A DNA stretch of 64,000 bases, from contig BCIO01000005.1 of the NCBI GenBank assembly GCA_001599975.1, positions 434,001-498,000 of the forward strand, given 5' to 3'. How positions within the stretch are numbered: position 1 is the stretch's first letter; each line of letters opens with the position of its first letter. This DNA comes from Cystobasidiopsis lactophilus (lineage: Eukaryota; Basidiomycota; Agaricostilbomycetes; Agaricostilbales; Chionosphaeraceae). Below the pieces are notes generated by a model that searched no databases, was not told where the DNA came from, and saw nothing but the letters and a program-made list of their open reading frames with translations. This document shows, piece by piece, positions 2,909 through 27,150 of the stretch. Position numbers and translations under genes: made by a program.

Positions 2909-3708
2909 CCCCGCTCTCTTGGATGCCTATCGAAATTGCAACGGGTACGTGCGTCCGTGCAGTGGTCCGAATGTCGACTCAAGCCAGGATTGAAGGCTTT
3001 CAAATCTTTCATTTTTGCTCGTGTCGGTCCATGGTGAGTTCAACAAATCTCATCTCTTACAGTCATTTCTGACCCGTAACGCTACTAAGGAGCACAAGGA
3101 GCAAGTTGTCGGTGCTCTCGCAGATACAAGGGCGCAATTTGGTGTATTGAGTTTGACGGTGATTCATGATGTGGAAGGTGGATAGCTAAACTGTGCAAAG
3201 CCAACCAAGCAGTGCGGCGCGAGCAGTTGCAGCTTCATCCTGAAGTCTGCACAAACCCTTGAATGGTCTACGATTGAGATAGTCACCGAGAGCAACTTGC
3301 GCCACCGACTCACCGAGCGAGCGAGCGCCTTTCATCTCTCCCTTCTTCGCGCATATTGTCTGTTTGGACCACTTTAGCGTTCATGCTCGGCTGATGACCA
3401 CTACTGGTCGTGAACTACCCTTTCCGAATTTCACGCGCTTTTGCTCCTTCTGTGTCTTGACCAAGTTGACGTGTTTGAGAGTCTCTGCCTTCTTCAATAA
3501 TAACCATGATGCCCTTGCGCAAAGCTTCAAGTGCTCATCAGTGGCCAAAGGGATGTCAGCTTCGTGGCCANGACACGTGCCTTTGGCACTCCTCAAGTTG
3601 ATCTGTTGTTGTTTTCTTGCTGACCCTGATTAGATTATATTTGTCGAGCAATATGATGTTGTTTCTGTGTTCAGCCGCCTCTCCTCGAACGGTCACCCCC
3701 GGTCCAAC
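2909..3708. other. Long intergenic region with a duplicated flank and one ambiguous base
   Basis: No convincing gene. The part from about 3027 to 3330 is a diverged copy of the sequence downstream of the tail-collar gene (about 4845-5128). An N is present at 3571. ORFs crossing this stretch look random. Confidence 0.6.
3027..3330 (+). repeat. Diverged direct repeat, copy 1 (downstream-flank type)
   Basis: Shares, in the same order and orientation with 4845-5128, blocks such as ACTAAGGAGCAC, TTGGTGTATTGAG, GCTTCATCCTGAA, TGAATGGTCTAC and CACCGAGCGAGC. In copy 2 these blocks start just after the stop of the tail-collar gene, so copy 1 looks like the 3' flank of a lost or deleted relative. Confidence 0.75.
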
Positions 3709-4825
3709 ATGAAGAGCTCCTTTCTCTTGGCTTTGCTGGGTCTGCTCACTTTTGCCGCCGCCGCCAACCTGGCCGCCGAGCAACCCCACCTGGCCGAACG
3801 GGCTGCACCCGCCACTTGCAAGACGTGCCCTGCTGGTGAGCTGCAATTCTCTCTCGCCAACGGAGCGCCTGGAACATGGTTTGGGACTGCAGGCCCGAGA
3901 GGTCCCAGAGGCCTCACTGGTGCACGCGGCCCTTCGGGCAAGAACGGCGTGGATGGAGTCACTCTCGGCACCAAACTGTTGAACTATGTATGTGCCACCA
4001 CTGAGCTGGGCGTTGTTTGGCTGGCATTGACTTGTCTGCAGGTTTTCGGTCACTTCGACAGTATGGCTCCGTATTGTTGGTGTTGCCAGCAGATATATTG
4101 ACTAGCTCTTGCCCAGGCCGAGTGGTGAACTACGTGAGCTCTGCTGCGCCTGGGAAGTTCGGTCGATCCTGATTCGAGCGGGACGCAGGTCTTGAATCGA
4201 CTCGATTGTAAATCCCCCTTCCAGTGGTGATCCGCGAACCAGAGCGATCTGACAGGCTTGCGCACAGCTCGAGTGACGACATATGTGAGCTCACGTTCAG
4301 CTTGCGATGTGGTCAAAACCTGAACCTAAGACAGGTTGCTAACCACCTCGATGGTGCGAACCGAATCGACAGCCGTTAGGAAGCCCAGCTGACACTCTGT
4401 CTTCCAGACCGATATCGCCGCTTCATCTTTTCTTATCCCGACAATCGTCAGTGCAATAACGTCCCGCCTATCAAACGCGGGCTGCAGGAAGATGCGCCAG
4501 CTGCTAATTCCCTCGCCAAACGCGACCTAATGACCTATTACGTCGGCCAGCTCATTCTTGTTCCCTATACCTTTTGTCCTTCGGGCTTCCAACTGGCCGA
4601 TGGATCGCTCGTGGACCTCAGCACTCAAGGCCAATTTGCACTTTTCTCTTTAATCGGCACGACTTTTGGTGGCAATGGCGTAACGAACTTCGCTTTGCCT
4701 GACATGCAAGCCTTCACGCCAGGTATATTGGCTTTACTCTCGCGGGAGCTCCATTGTGACGGCTGGCCGCAGGCTGCTTTCGATACTGCATCAGTATGGG
4801 TGGCACATTTCCACAGCGCGCCTAG
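3709..4825 (+). CDS. Secreted collagen-like / phage-type tail-collar domain protein built from micro-exons
   Basis: Nine exons: 3709-3835, 3893-3987, 4042-4060, 4117-4133, 4189-4207, 4256-4284, 4335-4353, 4408-4722 and 4773-4825; 230 residues, all phases consistent, introns 48-57 bases. Residues 1-20 form a signal peptide. Exon 2 encodes a short collagen-like Gly-x-y run (GPRGPRGLTGARGPSGKNG). Five micro-exons of 19, 17, 19, 29 and 19 bases then encode three repeats of a V-x-x-x-h-D...R-h-x-x-Y pattern (VFGHFD/RVVNY, VLNRLD/RVTTY, VANHLD/DRYRR), probably a coiled trimerisation segment. A KR-rich linker ending AKRD could be a Kex2-type site. The last 60 or so residues match a phage Tail Collar domain: FCPSGFQLADGS, FALFSLIGTTFGGNGVTNFA, LPDMQAF and the terminal YCISMGGTFPQRA. 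Role is unknown; an adhesin- or fibre-like secreted trimer is inference. Confidence 0.8.
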
Positions 4826-5359
4826 AAGAGCGCTATTTATTTCTTCGTCTTTCCACGGTGGGTCCGCTTTATCCCATCTTTATTGCTCGTTAATCACCGG
4901 CACACTACTAAGGAGCACTAAAAGCAATCTGCTGGTGGGCTCACAGATATGAGGGCGAAACTTGGTGTATTGAGACGGCACGGTTCGGATTGAAGGCTTG
5001 CCCCCTGTCAGACAACCAAGCATGTAGTACTGTGCCAGCAGTCGAAGCTTCATCCTGAATCCTGCACGACCCGTGAATGGTCTACCATCGAGAGAGTTGG
5101 TCACCGGGAGTAACGCCACCGAGCGAGCTCGCCAACTTCTGCCCACTGCCGTCAAACCCCCTCCGGCCTATGCCGCTCATGCATCCGTGATCACCGCATA
5201 GATGCCTGCTACGAATGCTGCGGGGATGTTTGCTTCGTTCCCTCTGCCGATGGCATGGCCACCGAGATCCTGCGTTTTTAACCGGGCAACTCGCTAGCCC
5301 TCTGCTGCCCGGCTCCCCCACACTCTTTGTTTCCTCTACCACGAACTGTCTGCTGCACC
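4826..5359. other. Intergenic region before the monooxygenase
   Basis: Holds the second copy of the flank repeat (4845-5128). The final 200 bases lead into the monooxygenase start and include a CCACACTCTTTG...CTCTACC pyrimidine-rich stretch. No gene seen. Confidence 0.5.
4845..5128 (+). repeat. Diverged direct repeat, copy 2 (3' flank of tail-collar gene)
   Basis: Counterpart of 3027-3330. Begins about 20 bases after the tail-collar stop codon and shares several blocks of 11-17 bases with copy 1 in the same order. Confidence 0.75.
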
Positions 5360-12762: not shown

Positions 12763-15700
12763 ATGGCTGTTCGTGCTGCTGACCCCTTATTGCCTCGCTG
12801 TTGGCCTTAACGTATCGATTCACGCACAGTTCTGGAAGTTTGGCTTCTCGCAGCCCTCGGCCATCGATGCTTTGCTCAACGCGGCGCCGCCCTCGGCCCC
12901 CTCGACTCCCTCTGATGGCTTGGACCGGCCTTTGCAGCCTTTGATGATCACGCTGGACCAGCTGCTGGAGGAAGACGACCTGCTGCAAGAGACCAAAGGA
13001 GGGCACGCCAAGCTGGTCAGTTGCGAGCCTATGATTAATTACATGGAGCGAGGATTAACGCATGAATTTGGGCGCAACCCAGGGCGACTTTCTGGCCAGG
13101 CCCACCGTCCTCAAGCGCCTGTTGGAGTACATCAATGGCAGCGCTTTCGAGGTGGACGTGCCGGCCATCGACGAGGAGCGGGAGAAGCACGAGCGGCGGC
13201 GACAAAGGTGACGGCGGCTGCCCTTACTTCATCAGCCCTTTACCAGTCGTGCTGATGTGACAGAGGCGACAATATTTACAGACTACCGCACATTTGCACA
13301 GAGCTGATACTGTGTAACGTGCATTTGGTCATGCAGGAGTTATTTGGGGATTTGCAGGGCTATCTAGGTTCGTGGGCGCTCGCTTTTCAGGCTCACACGA
13401 CACGAGTCTGAGGCGTTAGTCGCTCGGAACAGCACCGTTCTGGAACCATGTGCTGGAGCAAGACCCAAAGGATACGATGCAGAACACGGCGCTGCTCAGC
13501 CACTGGACCAAGACCAATTCGCATCTCTTGCACGAGCGGCCGACAGAGGTGCGCGAATGGGCCTGACTTTATGCCATTGGTATATCGCTGAAGATTGGTG
13601 TACAGATGTTGGAGTTTGTGAAGAGCCAACCGGGCTTGATTGCGCAGATGGTGGCCCACATCAATTGCTCACCCATCGCTGACATCCTCTTCCGCTTTAT
13701 CCAACTCGAAGTCGACCCTCGCGGGCAGGGCATCATCGACTACCTCTCCAGCCAGGGTCTGGTCGTGCTCTTGATCTCCCGCCTGTCGCCCGTCTACTCG
13801 TCCGCGACGCACTTGGCCGTCGCCGAGTTCGTCAAGGCGTTCATCAACTACACCTCTTCCGCCAACGCCAGCGCCGGCTCGGCCGAGTTCGCCCCACCAG
13901 ATTCCAATGCATCTAACCACGCACCCGGAGGAGGCCCGCCGCCGCAGTACCACACCAATTGGGGGAAAGCGGGCGGCATGCAGGGCAACTCGGAGGACAA
14001 CCACGCGCCCATTTGGGCCTCCACCCGCCTGCTCCAAGATTTGGCTTCTAAGGACACCATGCGACTCATGCTTCAGTTCATGCTGGACGAGTACCCCGCC
14101 GCTCGGTCGGCCGCAGAGCGCTCGTCGCCTTCCTCCTCCCTCGAACCTCCCTCTACTCCGGAAAGCGCCTCGGCCGTCACGCCTTCCTTGGACTTTGTGA
14201 CGCCTCGGTACGAAAAGACGGAAAAGGAGGCCGCTTTGGCCGGCTCGCCTGGCTCGTCCTTCCTCGAAGTGTCGTCCACCACCACCGCCTCCGCTGAAGC
14301 TTCTACCTCGAGCTCTCCCATTCCGCCTTCCCCTGGCACATCTTCACCTTCCACTTCCCTACGCTTGCCCACCGAATTCGCCTCGCCAAGCAAGGCGGCG
14401 CCAGAAGACATCACGCCCGAGAGCGCCACCTCGTCCTTGATCCAGTGCTTGTCCATCATCATCGACCTCATCCGCAAGATCAACTCCGATTTTTCCGAGC
14501 AGCAGATTCTCCACTATCTCCGCAAGCAAAACCACCTTCTCAACGCCCCGCCCAACCCTGCGGGTCCGGACAAAAAACTCAAGTCGCCCTGCCGAGGGCC
14601 AAGCGTCGTCGATTTGAGCGCGTTGGTCGAGTGCGTTGGCAGCCGAATAACCGACTTCAACAGCCTGCTGGAGCAGCCGCGGTCTAATGTGGGTGATGTT
14701 CCACCTTTGAGCCATTGTGAACCAGGGGCTTGAAGCCTTTTGATCCCTCGCAGACAACACCACTCAAATCGACCATTGGGCCCATCTCGCCGCTAACGCT
14801 GGAGCGCTTCCGCATATGCGAGCTCTACGCCGAGATGCTGCACTGCTCCAACATGGCGCTGCTCAACCGCCAAGGCCAAGCTGTGCCAAAATACGATGCG
14901 AACGGCAACCTCGAAGGCGGCCTGACCTCGCTGCATATCCTAGAAGATGCCCTGGCGCACCCGATGCCGGTCTTAGAAGCCAATGAAGAAGGACCGCCCA
15001 CATCCTTCTCCAGCGGGAGCAGCAACGCGGAGACAGACCGCGACTCGGTAGCCACCTCGACGTACGAGTCCGAGGCCACGCCGAACCCGTCCGACGACTC
15101 GCTCGACCTCGTCGCCAACCTAGAAGACGTCTCGCTCGACTCGGCAGACAACAGCCCGGTCATCGGCCGCGGCTTGTCCGAATCGCCAGCGATGGCCATG
15201 CGCATGGCCAGCACCCCTCCCCAGCCGGCGCCTATTGCAGACCTGTCATTAGCTCAAAAGCCACCGTTGACGACTGGGCAACGGCTAAAGACGCGCTTCC
15301 TAGAACACAAAGTGCACGCTATCCTGCTTGTGAGTCCAAGCTCCCAACGAGATGGCATACGCGGTCTGAAAGGGAGACACTTGTTCACAGAACCTATTCT
15401 TCTCCTACCCTTGGCACAACTTCCTCCACAGCGTCGTCTACGACCTTATCCAGCAGACTTTTGGCGCTCGCATGGACTTGCCACTCAACAAGGATCTCTG
15501 CCTGGCCGTCTTCCTCGAGGGCCACCTGACCAACTTGATTCTGCAAGGCCAGAAAGCCAACGATGCTGCGTCGTGCGTGCTGTCTTATCCTTAGCAAGAA
15601 TCTTTTGCTGACTGCGTGCATCAACCACAGGAACGGCGCCAAGCAGCGGCGGCTTGGCTACATGGGGCATCTGTCGCTAATAGCAGAGGAGGTGGTCAAG

Positions 15701-16923: not shown

Positions 16924-17167
16924 ATTTGACTCTCCAATTCTCTAGAGCTGCCCTATATAATCCCTTTTCGCTTTGGTCATTTGAATCACTTTGCACGGTC
17001 AATCTCTTTGCATTGCGGAACCCGATCTCTCTAAGGCCCAATTCCTTTTTGCCCCTTCTATCTTTTGCGACGACGACCAGCGTTCAGAGCAGCCATCATA
17101 TCAAAAGCGTATTGCATATCAGGCGGGATGAGCATTTTCAAGCGGCGCGTGGTTTGGTCCGCGTCAG

Positions 17168-18440
17168 TCAGGACAAAGCAGCCGGGTCTGCAAGGCTTCC
17201 AACGTCAGATGAGCAAGCATCTCATAGAGTAGAAGGGAGCACTTGCAAAGACATCAGCAGGTTCTTCTTGGTCAAGGATGGCGGCGGCTTTAGCTTCTTG
17301 TACAAGTCGGCGCCCGCGTTGTTGCCACATGCGCTCGAGTGGGAGCAGACCTGTGCGGACGAACTTCCAGTGCTAAATCAAGAGATCTAAGGAAAGGGAG
17401 TCTGCGCACGGGAACGACGTAGCCCAAAGCGGTCAGGACTGGGACCTTGATGGGTGGCCGTGGAGGCTTCGGCGCCTTGAACTCGATGTCCTTGGCGACC
17501 ACAAAGGCGAAGACCTGTGTGTATCGCTTCTGGCCCAAAGATCATAAAATGAAGGAGGTGGAGGTCAGCACACCATCGACTTGGCCACCTTGCCGCACGA
17601 GTAGCACTCCCACTCCTCCCGGAACATGAGGTCGGCCTCGAAGGACTCGAGGCGGTGCGCTTTCCAGGCGTCCTCCTCCCGATCCAGCAGGCGCTCGATC
17701 ATCTTGCGCACGTCCTTGGCCTTGAGCGGCTTCTTGGCCCACTCGGCCCGGTCGACGTCCGCCGGCAAGCTGAGCTCGAGCACGGTCTTGCCCTTGTAGG
17801 CCTCCGTGGGGTCTTCTATGCCGAACACCAGTTGCAATTGGACGACATTCTGTGGGCTCTCCTCGAACCATCAAGCTCGCTGCGAGCTCAAAGCGGAAGA
17901 GAACGCACCTGGTCATCTTGGCCTTGGGGCGGCGCGTAGACCCGGCCGATGGTTTCTTCCAACAGGCCGGACTCGATCTTGAGCTTCTTGATGCGCTTGG
18001 CGGAGAGGCCCCAGCTCGGGTTGTCCGCTTTGGCCTTGGCCGCCAGCTTGTCGATGCCGAGCGTGGGGTGGGCGCGGATGAACTGCTTGACTTCTTCGTC
18101 CGTGGGTAGGTCTGTGAGCGTTATGAGGAGGGTTTATGCTGAGGTGGCATGAGAGGGGACAGCTGCTCACAGTGTTCTTGAGCTGCAGGCGCCCCTTCGT
18201 GAGCACATTGTGAAGAGCTGAGAGTGGAGGAGCAGGCCCACAGTGCTTATGAGCTGTGAGTACAACCCAATGTTCTGTTCAGCTTGGATTCTGCTGAAAA
18301 GGTGACAGCTTCCACTCACCATATTTTTCAGCAGAGGCGAAGGCTGTGGTCGCACGCTGTCTTTTTTAAGCAACTTGCTTGAGGGGGGAAGCCTAGCGAA
18401 CCCGCCTTGCTCTTTCTCGAAAGTCGTAGCAGAGACCATG
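17168..18440 (-). CDS. Conserved protein of unknown function with a micro-exon N-terminus
   Basis: Exons in transcription order: 18438-18440 (ATG only), 18320-18356 (37 bases), 18242-18253 (12), 18171-18182 (12), 17909-18111, 17574-17849, 17410-17514, 17243-17372 and 17168-17187; 265 residues; every phase fits. The two 12-base exons read AHKH and SQEH. The core has DLPTDEEV-type helix LPTDEEVKQFIRAHP, then SWGLSAKRIKKLKIESG, a middle VVQLQLVFGIEDPTEAYKG, a possible metal-binding CYSCGK, and C-terminal KVPVLTALGYVVPHWKFVR. I do not recognise the family. The first exons are related in sequence and splice layout to the array at 20868-22010, and both loci share an upstream CCGGACACTTTT block. Sure of the core exons; the ATG-only first exon is inferred. 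Confidence 0.65.
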
Positions 18441-19352
18441 GTGATTTGAGGACAAGAGCACAATCACACATCACGACAGAGAAGCAAGAGCGGAAGGGTG
18501 CACCGGACACTTTTTCGCGTTCAATGTCAAGATTCGAACAGGCCCCTGTCCAAACTTGGGCCATGCGAGCATTCATTCGACTGACAGTCAATCAGGCAGC
18601 AGTTCAGAAGCAGTCAGGGAAGCGGGATGTCATTGAGATCGCGCAAATTGGTTGTCAAAGGGCAACCCGCTTGGCCGCTCATTTTCTTGTCCTCGCGCCA
18701 CCAAAGACGCGTTTTGGAATGCTCTCAGTGTTTGTGAATGAGGACAATGCCCAGTCGCGCGGGATTCAGCCTGCTTGCCTTCTCTGCGACGCGCCTTTAA
18801 TGAAGCCTCCGCCCCCGGCCTTTGGTGGCGAGCTCGAAGCTCTGTCCCCCCAGCCTATTTGGCGTGAAGCCCACCCTTTCATACGCTAGATCGGGTGTGC
18901 TGGATGTTCTCAAGAGCTCATCCGCCATGTCGTTGTCGACCGCGGGCCTGCTCTGCTCAAAATGCTATGCACGACTTTTGCTGTCTTGGCCACCCAGACA
19001 CAAACCAGCTTGCACTCCTGCTTGTGTTTCGCTTTGCTTAATGCTCTAAACCAAATCGAAGCACAACTTGCCTTGCCCTCATTGGGAGCGTCCGCGATTT
19101 GGTATGGCGTTTCCCTCCCTTCAGTCCACTCTCCATCCTGACTTTTCCAGGTCGTCGACGCCGTACAGCAAGCCTCTCGTGATACTCTTTGACAACTATT
19201 ACCTGCACTGCTTGCTGCTCCTCCCAGGCTCTCGAGCCGTTTGGCCACTCGCCAAACCGCACCCCGCCCCCACAAGCCCTCTTCAAATGCCCAGGCGTCC
19301 CAACTGTGACTTTCTCACCCAATCTACCAATCCATCCTTGCTGTCGAACGAA
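18441..19352. other. Intergenic region, 912 bases
   Basis: Lies between a minus-strand gene and the first DUF1330-like gene. About 18463-18490 on the minus strand there is a copy of the Ser-rich exon module found three times in the 21-kb array (block CTTCTCTGTC), and CCGGACACTTTT near 18505 recurs near 22070. ORFs here look random. Confidence 0.5.
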
Positions 19353-19915
19353 ATGTCAGCAGCCAAAAGCGTCGAGGTGGATTTCAGCTGGGGCGTGGGC
19401 AAGATGAAGGAGTGGGCGGCGCAGTTCGACGGGCCGAAGCCTTTCCACATGCTCAACCTCCTCAAGTTCCACGACCAGGCGCAGTACCCAGAAGGCAGCC
19501 AGGAGACGCCGTGCACTGGCAGAGAGGCGTTCTTTGATCGGTTCGCTACTAGTTAGTCTTGCTCGGCTCCTCAATCTAGCTTGATCGCCTGATTCTTTGA
19601 CCTTGCGTGACTCACAGTCTCGACGCCCATTGTCAAGTCTGAAGGTGGTCATGTGGTCTATGCTGGACATCTGGGCGGCGCGCTGGTCTGCCCGCCGGGA
19701 GAGGACTGGGACGTTGTGCTGCTGGTCTACTACCCGAGCTTCGAGTCCTTCATCACGCTCTGGGAGCACCCTGACTACCAGTTCGTTTTGGTCCCTGTGC
19801 CCAGATGTCGTGGATTTATAGTTGACTTGGGTCATGAATTCACAGCGCGGCTTCGGTCCACCGGAAAGCGGCCCTCGATAACTGGCGGTTGCTGGTCACT
19901 ATCGAAGGCCTGTAA
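19353..19915 (+). CDS. DUF1330-like protein, paralogue 1
   Basis: Exons 19353-19551, 19618-19780 and 19846-19915; 143 residues. The fold of DUF1330 (dimeric alpha-beta barrel, NIPSNAP-like) is suggested by FHMLNLLKFHDQAQYP, GGHVVYAGHLGGALVCPP, WDVVLLVYYPSFESFITLW, the DYHAASVHRKAAL helix and the final strand LLVTIEGL. Such domains bind small ligands or catalyse small-molecule chemistry; nothing here fixes a substrate. Intron 2 uses donor GTTCGT. Its neighbour at 20237 is a tandem paralogue with introns at the same two positions and phases, so the pair arose by duplication. Confidence 0.75.
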
Positions 19916-20236
19916 AGGGAGCTTAAAAGTTGGACTCTCATTGCCGTGTCTTCGTGTGCTTGGAGCTGATTCGTCGAAGCTCGAACCTTGTTGGCGTTCC
20001 GCTGGGATTCTTGTGTGGCAAAGGTCTCTTCCGGTGTTGTCCGGTGTTGCATCGGCCCGCTATGTGCTTGTTTGACTCTAGTGCTTCGTCATGATCTGCC
20101 ACTTTGCGAGCTGCTTGTTGCCTCATGTTGGAGCTTCAACTCTCAACACTCGTCGGCCAAGCCCCCGCCCCCACTCGAGCCAGTACAGGCGTCCCAATCC
20201 GCTTTCCCTCAGCGTCAACCAACACCGCGCTCAAAA

Positions 20237-20817
20237 ATGGCCGCACCTAAGACTGTCGAGATTGACCCGACCTGGGGAGTGGACAAGATGAGGGAGATCG
20301 CCGCTGAGGTCGCCGCGCAACGGGGGAGCACCGACCTGCCGCAAGGCATTCACATGTTGAACCTCCTCAAGTTCCGGGAGGCCGCCTTATACCCACCAGG
20401 CTCTAAGGACACTCCTTGTTCGGGAAAGGAAGCGTATTTTGGGCCCTATGCTACCGGTTCGTTCTTGGTCTCAACTTCACTTCGAGTTGAACGTCTTCTC
20501 AATTCGCTTGTCGAAGTTTCCACTCCTATTGTGATGGATTTGGGCGGAAGCGTCCTCTTCAATGGGACAATAGCTGGCTCCTTGCTGTGCCCGCCAGAAG
20601 AAGACTGGGATCACATCCTGCTCGTCCACTATCCGACCTTCGACGCTTTTGTCAAGCTCTGGGAGAACCCCAAATATCGGTCAGTCTTGCAGTCTGAAAA
20701 AATCCCATCCTGACTCTCACGTTCATCGTGCGATGATGCAGGGCAGTCATGTATCACAGGACAGCGGCGCTGGTGGACTCAAGGTTGATCGTCACCATCG
20801 GCGTAGACTCAAGTTGA
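20237..20817 (+). CDS. DUF1330-like protein, paralogue 2
   Basis: Exons 20237-20456, 20517-20679 and 20742-20817; 152 residues. Same architecture as the gene at 19353: IHMLNLLKFREAALYPPGS, STPIVMDLGGSVLFNGTIAG, LLCPPEEDW, LLVHYPTFDAFVKLW, then KYRAVMYHRTAALVDSRL and VTIGVDSS. Intron positions and phases (1 and 2) match paralogue 1. It has a nine-residue insertion (AAQRGSTDL region) in the first helix. Its 3' end faces the end of the minus-strand micro-exon array. Confidence 0.75.
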
Positions 20818-20867
20818 TCTTGTTGAACCTGAATAGCTTATGCATTGTAACTTCTATTGTGGACACA

Positions 20868-22010
20868 CTATTTGCCCCTACGATGCTGAGGAGTACATTG
20901 CGAATCGCGAAGCAAGCACTTGAACTAATAAGGCTGGACATGCTTACGGTGCATGTACGCTGTAGTTCGTCCACCAATAAGCACAAGAAAGTTGAAAGTG
21001 GAAGCTGGAACCCACGTCACTTCTTGACAGAGAAACAAAAGCTGTGACGACCTTACCAGCCTAAGCAATTTGCTTGAAAGGGTTTCAGGTCGACGCACCC
21101 TGTCCTTGGGCTGTAGGCATTTCGCCCATAAGCCTTCGGTGCTTAAGGTTGGCAGATGCACCCACGATGCTCTTGTCCTGTGGTTGCCCAGTCCATTTCA
21201 GCTCTTAGAAGTTAGAAATGTCCTGCTGGACTCACAATGCTCTTGATCTGTAGACAACCATGCAGACCTAAGCGCGTGTGAGCTTAAAGGCGGGGCGGCC
21301 GAGCCCACCATGGCCATGAACTGCGAAGGCCATCCCAAGCTAAGCTCAGCTCGGCTTAAGATTGGAAGTGCTGCTCACGTTGCTCTTGAACTGTAGACCA
21401 GCTCCCCATACCTAAGCATCAGTTGACTTAGAAAGTGGAAGCTGGGACCCACGTCACTTTTTGACGGAGAGACAAGCTGGTCGCCAGTACTGAAACTTTA
21501 AGCAATTTGCTTGGAAGGCGGACAGGTTGACGCACCATGTCCTTGATCTGTGGGCGGATCTGACCCCTCTAAGCAAATGACGGCTAAGTCGACAGAGTGC
21601 ACGCACGATGATCTTGTCCTGTGGTTGCGATAGGCGTTAAGCTCAGCGCTCAGAGCTCAGAGATGACCTGCACGACTCACAATGATCTTGATCTGTGGGA
21701 AGCCGCCCATGGTAAGCGGGAGGGAGCTTAGGAGGTTGGACGGTCGAGCCCACCACGTCTGCGAGCTGTGATTTCGCGGCGTTCAGCTCGGTAGGGCTTA
21801 AGGCATCAAGCAAATGCTCACGATGCTTTAGAACTGTGGCAATCTGGCTTACACTAAGCATGTAACGGCTTAGAAGGGACAGAACGACCCACGCTGCTTC
21901 TTGACAGAGAAACGAGAGCTGCGGGGGACCCCCTTGCGACCTAAGCGACTCGCTTACAATGCGGCCAAGGGACACCCACCATGACGTTCTTGCTCCTCTC
22001 CAGCAGGCAT
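20868..22010 (-). CDS. Micro-exon array locus (about 16 candidate exons, most 12 bases)
   Basis: Candidate exons in transcription order: 21980-22010 (31 bases, ATG), 21893-21918 (26), 21822-21833, 21754-21765, 21681-21692, 21607-21618, 21536-21547 (12 each), 21453-21476 (24), 21379-21390, 21309-21320, 21236-21247, 21166-21177, 21099-21110 (12 each), 21016-21041 (26, or 36 to 21051 with an alternative acceptor), 20948-20959 (12) and 20868-20885. Each is flanked by (C/T)AG and GTG(A/C/G)G; all introns are 55-62 bases (47 with the alternative acceptor) and carry GCTTA(G/A) where a branch point belongs. In phase 0 the micro-exons read LADV, IKII, DKII, IKDM / FKSN, FMAM, IKSI, DKSI, PKDR; the 24-36-base exons read VSLSRS, VSPSKSD, VSLSRSD. 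The 12-base exon at 21822 has an in-frame TAA, so it is skipped, ends the product or marks decay. No domain was recognised. Whether the locus is translated is open. Confidence 0.5.
21042..21476 (-). repeat. Higher-order repeat unit 2: one Ser-rich exon plus five 12-base exons
   Basis: Unit 2 spans about 435 bases with exon order VSPSKSD, FKSN, FMAM, IKSI, DKSI, PKDR. A third, shortened unit begins at 21041 (VSLSRSD exon, then one 12-base exon). Confidence 0.75.
21477..21918 (-). repeat. Higher-order repeat unit 1: one Ser-rich exon plus five 12-base exons
   Basis: Unit 1 spans about 442 bases and contains the exon order VSLSRS, F-stop-SI, LADV, IKII, DKII, IKDM. It matches unit 2 exon by exon in order and in flanking intron sequence. 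Confidence 0.75.
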
Positions 22011-22287
22011 CAACCACGGTCGTTGGCTGAGGAAAAGCATCACAGAACGAAGGGGAGGCAATGTGACCGGACACTTTTGAGTTGAAGCCATTGAACAGTC
22101 TTCGTTCACGCGCAGTCATCAATCCACAGAAATCATATTCAGTTCAATGGGCATTTCAGGCAAGGAAAACCATCGGCTGCGCGGCTCGAGTCGCTGTCCG
22201 GCTCCAACCCGGTCTGAAGCCCTCTTTGCTCCGCTGCCACCAACTTGTGCCCGTCTCAAGTCATGCTTTAAGCGTGTGAAAACGAGA

Positions 22288-23533
22288 ATGCCATTCGACG
22301 CGCTCAACTCGCTCGCCTCGACGGGCATCTTCTCCAGCGTCTCCTTCTGGCTGATCGTGGCATCTGGCTTGGCTCTCTATTCCCTCTCGCTCTCCCGCCG
22401 CCGACCTCCAGCACCAGATGCGCACCCTCGCAAACTGCGCAACACGACGGTGTTCATCCACAACGCTTTCGCCGAGTGCGGCCCTGCGTTGATCGAAGTC
22501 CTGCTCCAAAGAGGCTGCCAGTTGATCCTCCTCCTCCCTCCCTCCCAAGCCCTGCGACCTGACATCTTGCAATTGTTCGCGGTGCTCAAAGAGAACGGGC
22601 CGGTGATGCACGCCCAGCTGTTCATTGAAGCGGTGGATTTGAAGTCAGCGGAGGATGTAAAGAGGTTCGTTAAAGAGTGGGAGAAGAAGGGCGTCCAGCG
22701 CAAGGGTCTACTGGGGGAGGAGATTGGGACGAGCAAGCCTTTGAGCGGCTTGGTGTTCCTACCTGATCATTCGACGGATGGACCGACGACGTATGTCCTC
22801 CCATCCCATCCCACAGTCCGCGTTCCCTTTACTGACTGCCTTGTTTGCGTGGTATTACAGAAAGCACAAGCTAGAGTTCTGTCGCGCTCTATTGCCAGTA
22901 GTGACCAAGCCTTCGTCCTCCTCCACCTCGGACCCGCTCTTACAAACTCCCACCGAGCTCCGAATCATCAACGTGTGCCTGGGGGCGTACGCTTTCTCCG
23001 TTCCTATTCCTCTCGCTTTATCCGACCTGTCCAATCCCACTTTACCTCTCACTCGACAATGGGCAATGAGAGCGCTGATCGATTCGCACCTCTTCGCTCT
23101 GGCCCAATCCAAACTGACCTCCTCCCTCCCCCGCAAAGCGCAGCAGGTCGCCTTCTTAACCACCTCGCCTGGACACTTGTTCAGCCAGCAAGTCCGAGCC
23201 ATAACCTCCACCCGCTCCTCCACCTTGGTCGAGTTCTGGGTGTTTGGCGTGTTGAAAGCGTTGCAGTTCTTAACTGTTTCCGTGGTGGGTTTGAGCCAGG
23301 CGGACGGGGCTGCGAAAGTGGATTGGTTGTTGGTTAAGAGGGAGGTGGAAGCGGGGGGCGTTTACATGCCTTATACCGACGTGTTCGTTTTCTCTCTTTC
23401 CCTTCCCTTCCCTTCCCTTCTCTCTCTCGCTTAAGCTGAGATGTGCGCGAACAGACTGGTAGGTACGCCGCCGAGGAAAGAACAAGAACTGCAAGACGCC
23501 GAGCAATTGTGGCAAGACACCATGGGTTCTTAA
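22288..23533 (+). CDS. DUF1776 family protein (SDR-like, membrane-anchored)
   Basis: Exons 22288-22790, 22861-23380 and 23441-23533; 371 residues. An N-terminal hydrophobic segment (SVSFWLIVASGLALYSLSL) suggests a membrane anchor. The remainder resembles fungal DUF1776 proteins, a degenerate short-chain dehydrogenase fold: NTTVFIHNAFAECGPALIEV, a long alpha/beta middle, TRQWAMRALIDSHLFALAQ, and the C-terminal CANRLVGTPPRKEQELQDAE. No TGxxxGxG or YxxxK active site is visible, so catalytic activity is doubtful. A longer ORF start at 22147 exists, but 22288 is the natural start before the anchor. Intron 2 contains a CCCTTCC run. Convergent with the small gene at 23579. Confidence 0.75.

Positions 23534-24108: not shown

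Positions 24109-27150
<3,042 letters not shown>

Follow-up and report, generated by a model that had tools for sequence, protein, structure and literature searches.

Arrays of micro-exons are known among fungi from the nank genes of truffles, for which the original paper is reportedly that of Iotti et al. in 2012. These NACHT-ankyrin genes of Tuber melanosporum are described, in the passages that concern them, as receptor-type genes with arrays of codon-sized, 3-bp micro-exons that are diversified through alternative splicing (PMC4986451, PMC10197012, PMC3689799). For the MEGs of schistosomes, the relevant passages assign about 80% of the coding sequence to symmetric short exons (6-36 bp), report an internal duplication that repeats an exon-length pattern in some MEG-26 members, and state that almost all products are secreted or membrane-anchored and that splice variants have been confirmed (PMC5825161). 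Other fungal micro-exons, as excerpted from their sources, include a 20-nt exon of Trichoderma Xlr2, for which differential inclusion was shown (PMC11121469), and exons from 6 bp upward in P450 genes of Phanerochaete chrysosporium, for which differential inclusion was proposed (PMC1184071). The passage on Xlr2 also states that annotation had missed this exon and that functional micro-exons had not previously been described in filamentous fungi (PMC11121469), a statement that sits uneasily with the passages on nank genes.

Here, we describe an array of predicted 12-nt micro-exons within a stretch of 64,000 nucleotides from Cystobasidiopsis lactophilus (the window, which has one N, at position 3571). 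Like the truffle nank genes as portrayed in those passages, it is fungal and carries micro-exons in an array; unlike them, it has 12-nt exons, no Pfam domain and a likely derivation from a neighbouring gene, here called gene X. NACHT-ankyrin architecture is found in neither the array product nor X. With the schistosome MEGs, as far as the same source goes, it shares a coding region made up mostly of short exons, and MEG-26 also repeats a length pattern; it differs in its two 26-nt exons, its TAA and its predicted splicing, and the MEGs are animal genes with which no homology is claimed. Symmetric exons, ten of 12 nt and one of 24 nt, make up 144 of the 243 nt (59%) of the proposed coding length, below what defines a MEG; because of this share, and because there is no NACHT-ankyrin domain, we file the array neither as a MEG nor as a nank member. 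The micro-exons of Xlr2 and the P450 genes are likewise very short and fungal, but their sources, in the parts available, do not describe them as tandem arrays of related units, and the available parts of PMC3584928 and PMC11333574 contain no tandem micro-exon array. No tandem array of 12-nt exons in a fungus was found in the open-licence literature searched, which is not proof of absence. The array differs from the known cases in unit size, in its derivation from a neighbour that is still present, and in its uncertain coding state. An earlier note on this DNA had held that there was no described fungal equivalent; the nank genes, arrays of codon-sized micro-exons according to those passages, prove it wrong.

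The array spans 21918-21016 on the minus strand and comprises ten segments of 12 nt together with three that are Ser-rich and measure 26, 24 and 26 nt (Table 1). A motif scan of the window returned ten exact YAG-N12-GTG(A/C/G)G segments on the minus strand at 21833-21099, within about 1.1 kb, and 15 further matches on both strands combined, of which two belong to gene X and one is on the plus strand within the array span. The Poisson probability of the ten array segments (3e-16) expresses non-randomness and not ten independent events, because the copies are related. The bracketing by (C/T)AG and GTG(A/C/G)G on the minus strand, the three Ser-rich segments of 24-26 bases and the introns of 55-62 nt are as the earlier note had read them. 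Its "about eleven" 12-base segments come to ten exact ones and a possible eleventh at 20959-20948 (minus strand), followed by GTAAGC; and GCTTA, which it had placed before the acceptor in all array introns, lies within 45 nt of the intron end in 12 of the 14, as against 6 of 138 other predicted introns. We also propose an additional 5′ exon that ends at 21980. All proposed array exons are at most 31 nt long. The array units are recovered by a repeat finder (8 copies of 25 nt), and the array is absent from the output of Tandem Repeats Finder at its default score. The proposed array start at 22010 (minus strand) lies 278 nt from the start, at 22288, of a predicted plus-strand gene; the two diverge and possibly share a promoter region.

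Table 1. Proposed features of the array and of gene X, in window coordinates.
Feature	Position	Strand	Basis
5′ motif AAAAGTGTCCGGT, 56 nt before proposed ATG	22066..22078	-	letters checked
Proposed first coding exon, 31 nt, ATG...CATG	21980..22010	-	colinear alignment with gene X
Ser-rich exon S1, 26 nt	21893..21918	-	motif, gene finder and alignment with X
12-nt exon P1a, TTCTAAAGCATC, in-frame TAA	21822..21833	-	motif and frame reading
12-nt exon P2a	21754..21765	-	motif and gene finder
12-nt exon P3a	21681..21692	-	motif and gene finder
12-nt exon P4a	21607..21618	-	motif and gene finder
12-nt exon P5a	21536..21547	-	motif and gene finder
Ser-rich exon S2, 24 nt, opens second block	21453..21476	-	motif, gene finder and block comparison
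12-nt exon P1b	21379..21390	-	motif and gene finder
12-nt exon P2b	21309..21320	-	motif and gene finder
12-nt exon P3b	21236..21247	-	motif and gene finder
12-nt exon P4b	21166..21177	-	motif and gene finder
12-nt exon P5b	21099..21110	-	motif and gene finder
Ser-rich exon S3, 26 nt, opens third, truncated block	21016..21041	-	motif and gene finder
Proposed last coding exon, ends TAA; or further 12-nt exon 20959-20948	20944..20959	-	sequence and gene finder
Gene X first exon, 34 nt, ATGGTC...GAGCAAG	18406..18439	-	read from sequence, and alignment
Gene X proposed GC-AG intron, 62 nt, after first exon	18344..18405	-	read from sequence
Gene X 24-nt exon, homologue of Ser-rich exons	18320..18343	-	gene finder; nhmmer E 7e-4
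Gene X 12-nt exon 1, CTCATAAGCACT	18242..18253	-	gene finder; nhmmer E 9e-5
Gene X 12-nt exon 2, CTCAAGAACACT	18171..18182	-	gene finder; nhmmer E 7e-3
Gene X remaining predicted exons	17164..18111	-	gene finder; no counterpart at array 3′ end

A simple gene finder, self-trained on the window, predicted 25 genes with 166 introns, a set that is surely wrong in places (three internal exons, for example, have a length of 0). For the scoring run, parameters were re-estimated without the array introns and coding sequence, the gene set itself being that of the run that included the array. The interval 20831-22270 scored 59.8 as one minus-strand gene with 14 introns, a value reached by none of 300 first-order shuffles (best 2.95, with no introns). 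When donor, acceptor and branch site were scored with the self-trained profile, all 14 array introns, at their proposed sites, fell at the 48th-98th percentile of the 138 other predicted introns, so that the minus-strand micro-exons and introns claimed in the earlier note have splice signals comparable to the rest of the window. On this profile the array would pass for a spliced gene of this genome. The gene finder's start is ATG 21982, as against ATG 22010 in our hand reading, and it evades the TAA of P1a by way of a 67-nt intron and a 4-nt exon (21825-21822); the 243-nt frame discussed below, with ATG 22010 and regular sites, is the hand reading and not the gene finder's model.

Gene X (18439-17164, minus strand) has one 265-residue frame, starting MVSATTFEKEQAFASAEKYAHKHSQEHYLPTDEEVKQ, which runs through frame-neutral micro-exons of 24, 12 and 12 nt near its 5′ end. 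Its first exon is likewise a hand reading, the gene finder having placed a different one; the first large exon contains no ATG in the 265-residue frame, and an upstream start and splicing are therefore likely in X. A Pfam search with gene X gave no match at E 0.1, and no relatives of it were found in a collection of genome contigs that was not made for fungi. Two weak matches to solved structures (E 0.0035 and 0.81) were not accepted as relatives, nor was a 20-residue match in a collection of viral, not fungal, contigs, where a 21-residue translation has no more than a brief stretch in common with X. Between gene X and the array, at 19104-20817 on the plus strand, lie two tandem DUF1330/EthD-like copies, which the gene finder joined through a doubtful 121-nt intron and which may be two genes.

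From the upstream motif, through the first exon and the hairpin intron, to the 24/26-nt exon and the first of the 12-nt exons, the 5′ regions of the array and gene X are colinear. The motif AAAAGTGTCCGGT recurs with the same 13 letters upstream of X (18514-18502, minus strand), and the window contains its core GTGTCCGGT at two places, the array and X, both times on the minus strand. Local alignment of the two 5′ regions scores 69, reached by none of 300 shuffles (best 42), and in a scan of 408 segments of 600 nt outside 20600-22500 the top three scores (69, 69 and 54) overlap the 5′ region of X, the best elsewhere being 47; the upstream part alone is weakly similar (score 43, reached by 5 of 2,000 shuffles, best 51). 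With an nhmmer profile of 13 array units, the three micro-exon units of X are the top three matches outside the array (E 9e-5, 7e-4 and 7e-3), and the next-best match in the window has an E of 0.24. The proposed first exon of the array ends in phase 1, as does that of X; the ATG of X aligns to GTG in the array, and the start codon assigned to the array is putative. These similarities, which are colinear from the 5′ region and first exon to the first introns and the micro-exons, indicate that the array is paralogous to the 5′ end of X and that X, which the earlier note had not seen, is its likely source. The remaining coding exons of X have no similar counterpart in the array: the 3′ part of the array aligned with the body of X scores 23 (shuffle mean 22.6, maximum 35), and 138 of 300 shuffles do as well. 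The array counts ten or eleven 12-nt exons where gene X counts two, and it lacks the longer body of X.

The relationship to X also bears on whether the array could be a product of chance, or a minisatellite bearing splice-like letters. Its units are indeed a tandem repeat by descent, but none of 300 shuffles matched the array, and the same units are predicted exons of X with the frame of X running through them. We regard such an origin as extremely improbable and have rejected it.

The array is laid out in units of one Ser-rich and five 12-nt exons, two of them full and a third begun, as had been proposed. In a 16x16 matrix of unit scores, P2, P3, P4 and P5 pair between block 1 and block 2 as mutual best matches; the suggested pairing of exon order thus stands for four of the five 12-nt pairs and fails for the first (21833 and 21390). 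S2 and S3 are the closest Ser exons (score 85, as against 52-54 with S1). These scores support duplication of a six-exon block, and in the simplest order single units would have multiplied first and the block would have been duplicated later.

Divergence between the two blocks is uneven. The splice-site letters, taken as the first six and last three of each intron, are identical at 53 of 54 positions, and the GT/AG letters alone at 24 of 24, whereas the intron bodies are identical at 191 of 282 (68%) with 22 gap events (Fisher, 2e-7 for the splice letters and 2e-4 for GT/AG alone). The compared columns were defined by the splice motif, and no exon was left out of either block. Given this difference between splice letters and intron bodies, splicing seems to have been under selection since the blocks were duplicated. 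The five 12-nt exon pairs are identical at 46 of 60 positions (77%) without a gap (Poisson for zero exon gaps, 0.012), the Ser exon differs in length by 2 nt, and exon identity is not significantly above that of the intron bodies (Fisher, P 0.22). Exon letters, unlike splice sites, appear to show no clear selection since the duplication. Their 14 differences fall at frame-0 codon positions 1, 2 and 3 as 5, 7 and 2, a distribution opposite to the one that purifying selection leaves in a protein-coding sequence, and not that of a conserved protein.

A transcribed or silent pseudogene would be a functionless 5′ duplicate of X, expanded as repeat DNA, with its splice sites left over. The TAA in P1a fits this account, as do the loss of the frame of X (through the 26-nt exon and the stop at the P3-P4 junction in both blocks), the roughly equal divergence of exons and introns, and the missing body of X at the 3′ end. 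Neutral decay, however, should have altered several of the splice letters while the intron bodies fell to 68% identity, and we consider this account possible but on balance doubtful.

The hand-read spliced product, from ATG 22010 to TAA 20944, is a single 243-nt frame (frame 0) with one internal TAA; this in-frame stop, which the earlier note had rightly reported in one exon, lies in P1a and is absent from P1b. Any protein product is therefore putative; with all proposed exons included, the array is not an intact protein-coding gene, and decay, or a transcript that yields no stable protein, may be the outcome. The joined 12-nt exons have 90% G+C at third positions and a coding score of +14 in frame 0, the other two frames scoring -37 and -16; the score is inflated because the exons share ancestry. 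For reference, 120-nt pieces of predicted coding sequence score 0.3 to 15 (5-95%). The whole 243-nt product scores +1.1 in frame 0, and -40 and -34 in the others. S1, at 26 nt, carries the phase of the first exon into frame 0, and S2, at 24 nt, preserves that frame in block 2; a 26-nt S2 would give the second frame and a stop at the P2b-P3b junction. The length of S2 thus fits frame-0 translation at some time after the block duplication, although chance gives the same in about 1 case in 3. Through the array, the frame of X meets stops at the P3-P4 junction of both blocks and, in a reading by hand, at the ends of S2 and S3, and is therefore not the array's present frame. The spliced product (80 residues, with the stop written as X) has no Pfam match at E 0.1, and its proposed N-terminus, MPAGEEQERH, contains no hydrophobic stretch by eye.

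Frame 0 is open except in P1a, and the ten 12-nt exons can be dropped without a frame shift, as the earlier note had argued; its frame-neutrality does not extend to the whole predicted frame, as two Ser exons are 26 nt long. Together with the precedents in truffle and schistosome, these features would suit a living micro-exon gene, a sub-case of the explanation favoured below, in which the TAA exon is skipped and combinations of 12-nt exons yield a family of short peptides. Its flanking introns stand at the 49th and 96th percentile, so that nothing there predicts skipping of P1a, and the amino-acid letters differ between the blocks and are not conserved; we think a living gene of this kind rather unlikely. 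The fuller proposal, that ten or eleven frame-neutral 12-nt exons are skipped combinatorially into many short peptides with the TAA exon as an on/off switch, strikes us as quite unlikely. If it were true, inclusion of P1a would give a 20-residue product and decay, and its skipping a 76-residue protein.

Conservation of splice sites but not of exon letters could also be read as the mark of a spliced non-coding RNA, or of a host transcript for intron hairpins. Stems of at least 5 Watson-Crick pairs are found in 11 of 14 array introns; among the other introns 37 of 138 have them, and among shuffled array introns 60 of 280. The branch 5-mer is fully paired in 5 of the 14 array introns (0.6 expected). 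Shared intron ancestry alone, however, repeats a hairpin; the 12-nt exon lengths are kept, which such an RNA would not need, and the window has no Rfam match at gathering score. Such an RNA seems to us very unlikely. No tRNA was found in the window with bacterial settings.

Hairpins are seen beyond the array as well. Branch-region stems of at least 6 Watson-Crick pairs occur in 16 of 138 non-array introns (28 of 690 shuffled), for example at 15573-15630, 17850-17908, 24277-24346 and 18254-18319. The intron after the 24-nt exon of X has the hairpin TTCAGC/GCTGAA where the S1 intron of the array has CTAAGC/GCTTAG, with both sides changed. Extended to every intron in the window, a rule of branch-site hairpins is weak (13 of 137 others as against 8.2 expected, reached by 9 of 200 shuffles) and was not adopted.

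The probabilities that we attach to these explanations overlap. The one that we favour, with moderate confidence, is that the array is a partial paralogue of X in which the micro-exon cassette was multiplied and splicing was kept, and in which one exon now carries a TAA. The promoter, first exon and cassette of 24, 12 and 12 nt would have been copied from X, and the unit of a 12-nt exon with its intron then multiplied in tandem; the resulting six-exon block would have been duplicated and a third block begun. In fungi of this kind, splicing is thought to recognise short introns as units, and each added unit would therefore have brought its own complete intron and four codons with no frame shift. 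The 26-nt first Ser exon would have shifted translation into the new frame 0, where the cassette would encode tetrapeptides rich in Lys and Ile. Selection would have kept the splice sites of the presumed transcript and hardly its exon letters, because failed splicing would break the frame. The TAA in P1a may be a recent lesion, giving a spliced transcript without a long protein, or may mark an exon that needs skipping.

The protein predicted for a plus-strand gene at 3709-4952 combines a phage tail collar domain (Pfam Collar, E 1.7e-15) with a hydrophobic N-terminus, and a 12-residue repeat in it is coded by five tandem micro-exons of 19, 17, 19, 17 and 19 nt; some similarity is seen in two of six same-class pairs of its introns (z 3.3 and 2.6). 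Since the window thus holds a second predicted micro-exon gene, of another kind with 19/17-nt exons, the process may be more than a one-off in this genome. The array suggests how a micro-exon array may originate, with a frame-neutral set of tiny exons copied and multiplied, its splice sites kept and its exon letters drifting. The likely source, gene X, still lies about 2.5 kb from the array, and with this case the question of how micro-exon genes originate can be put to the test in a fungus.
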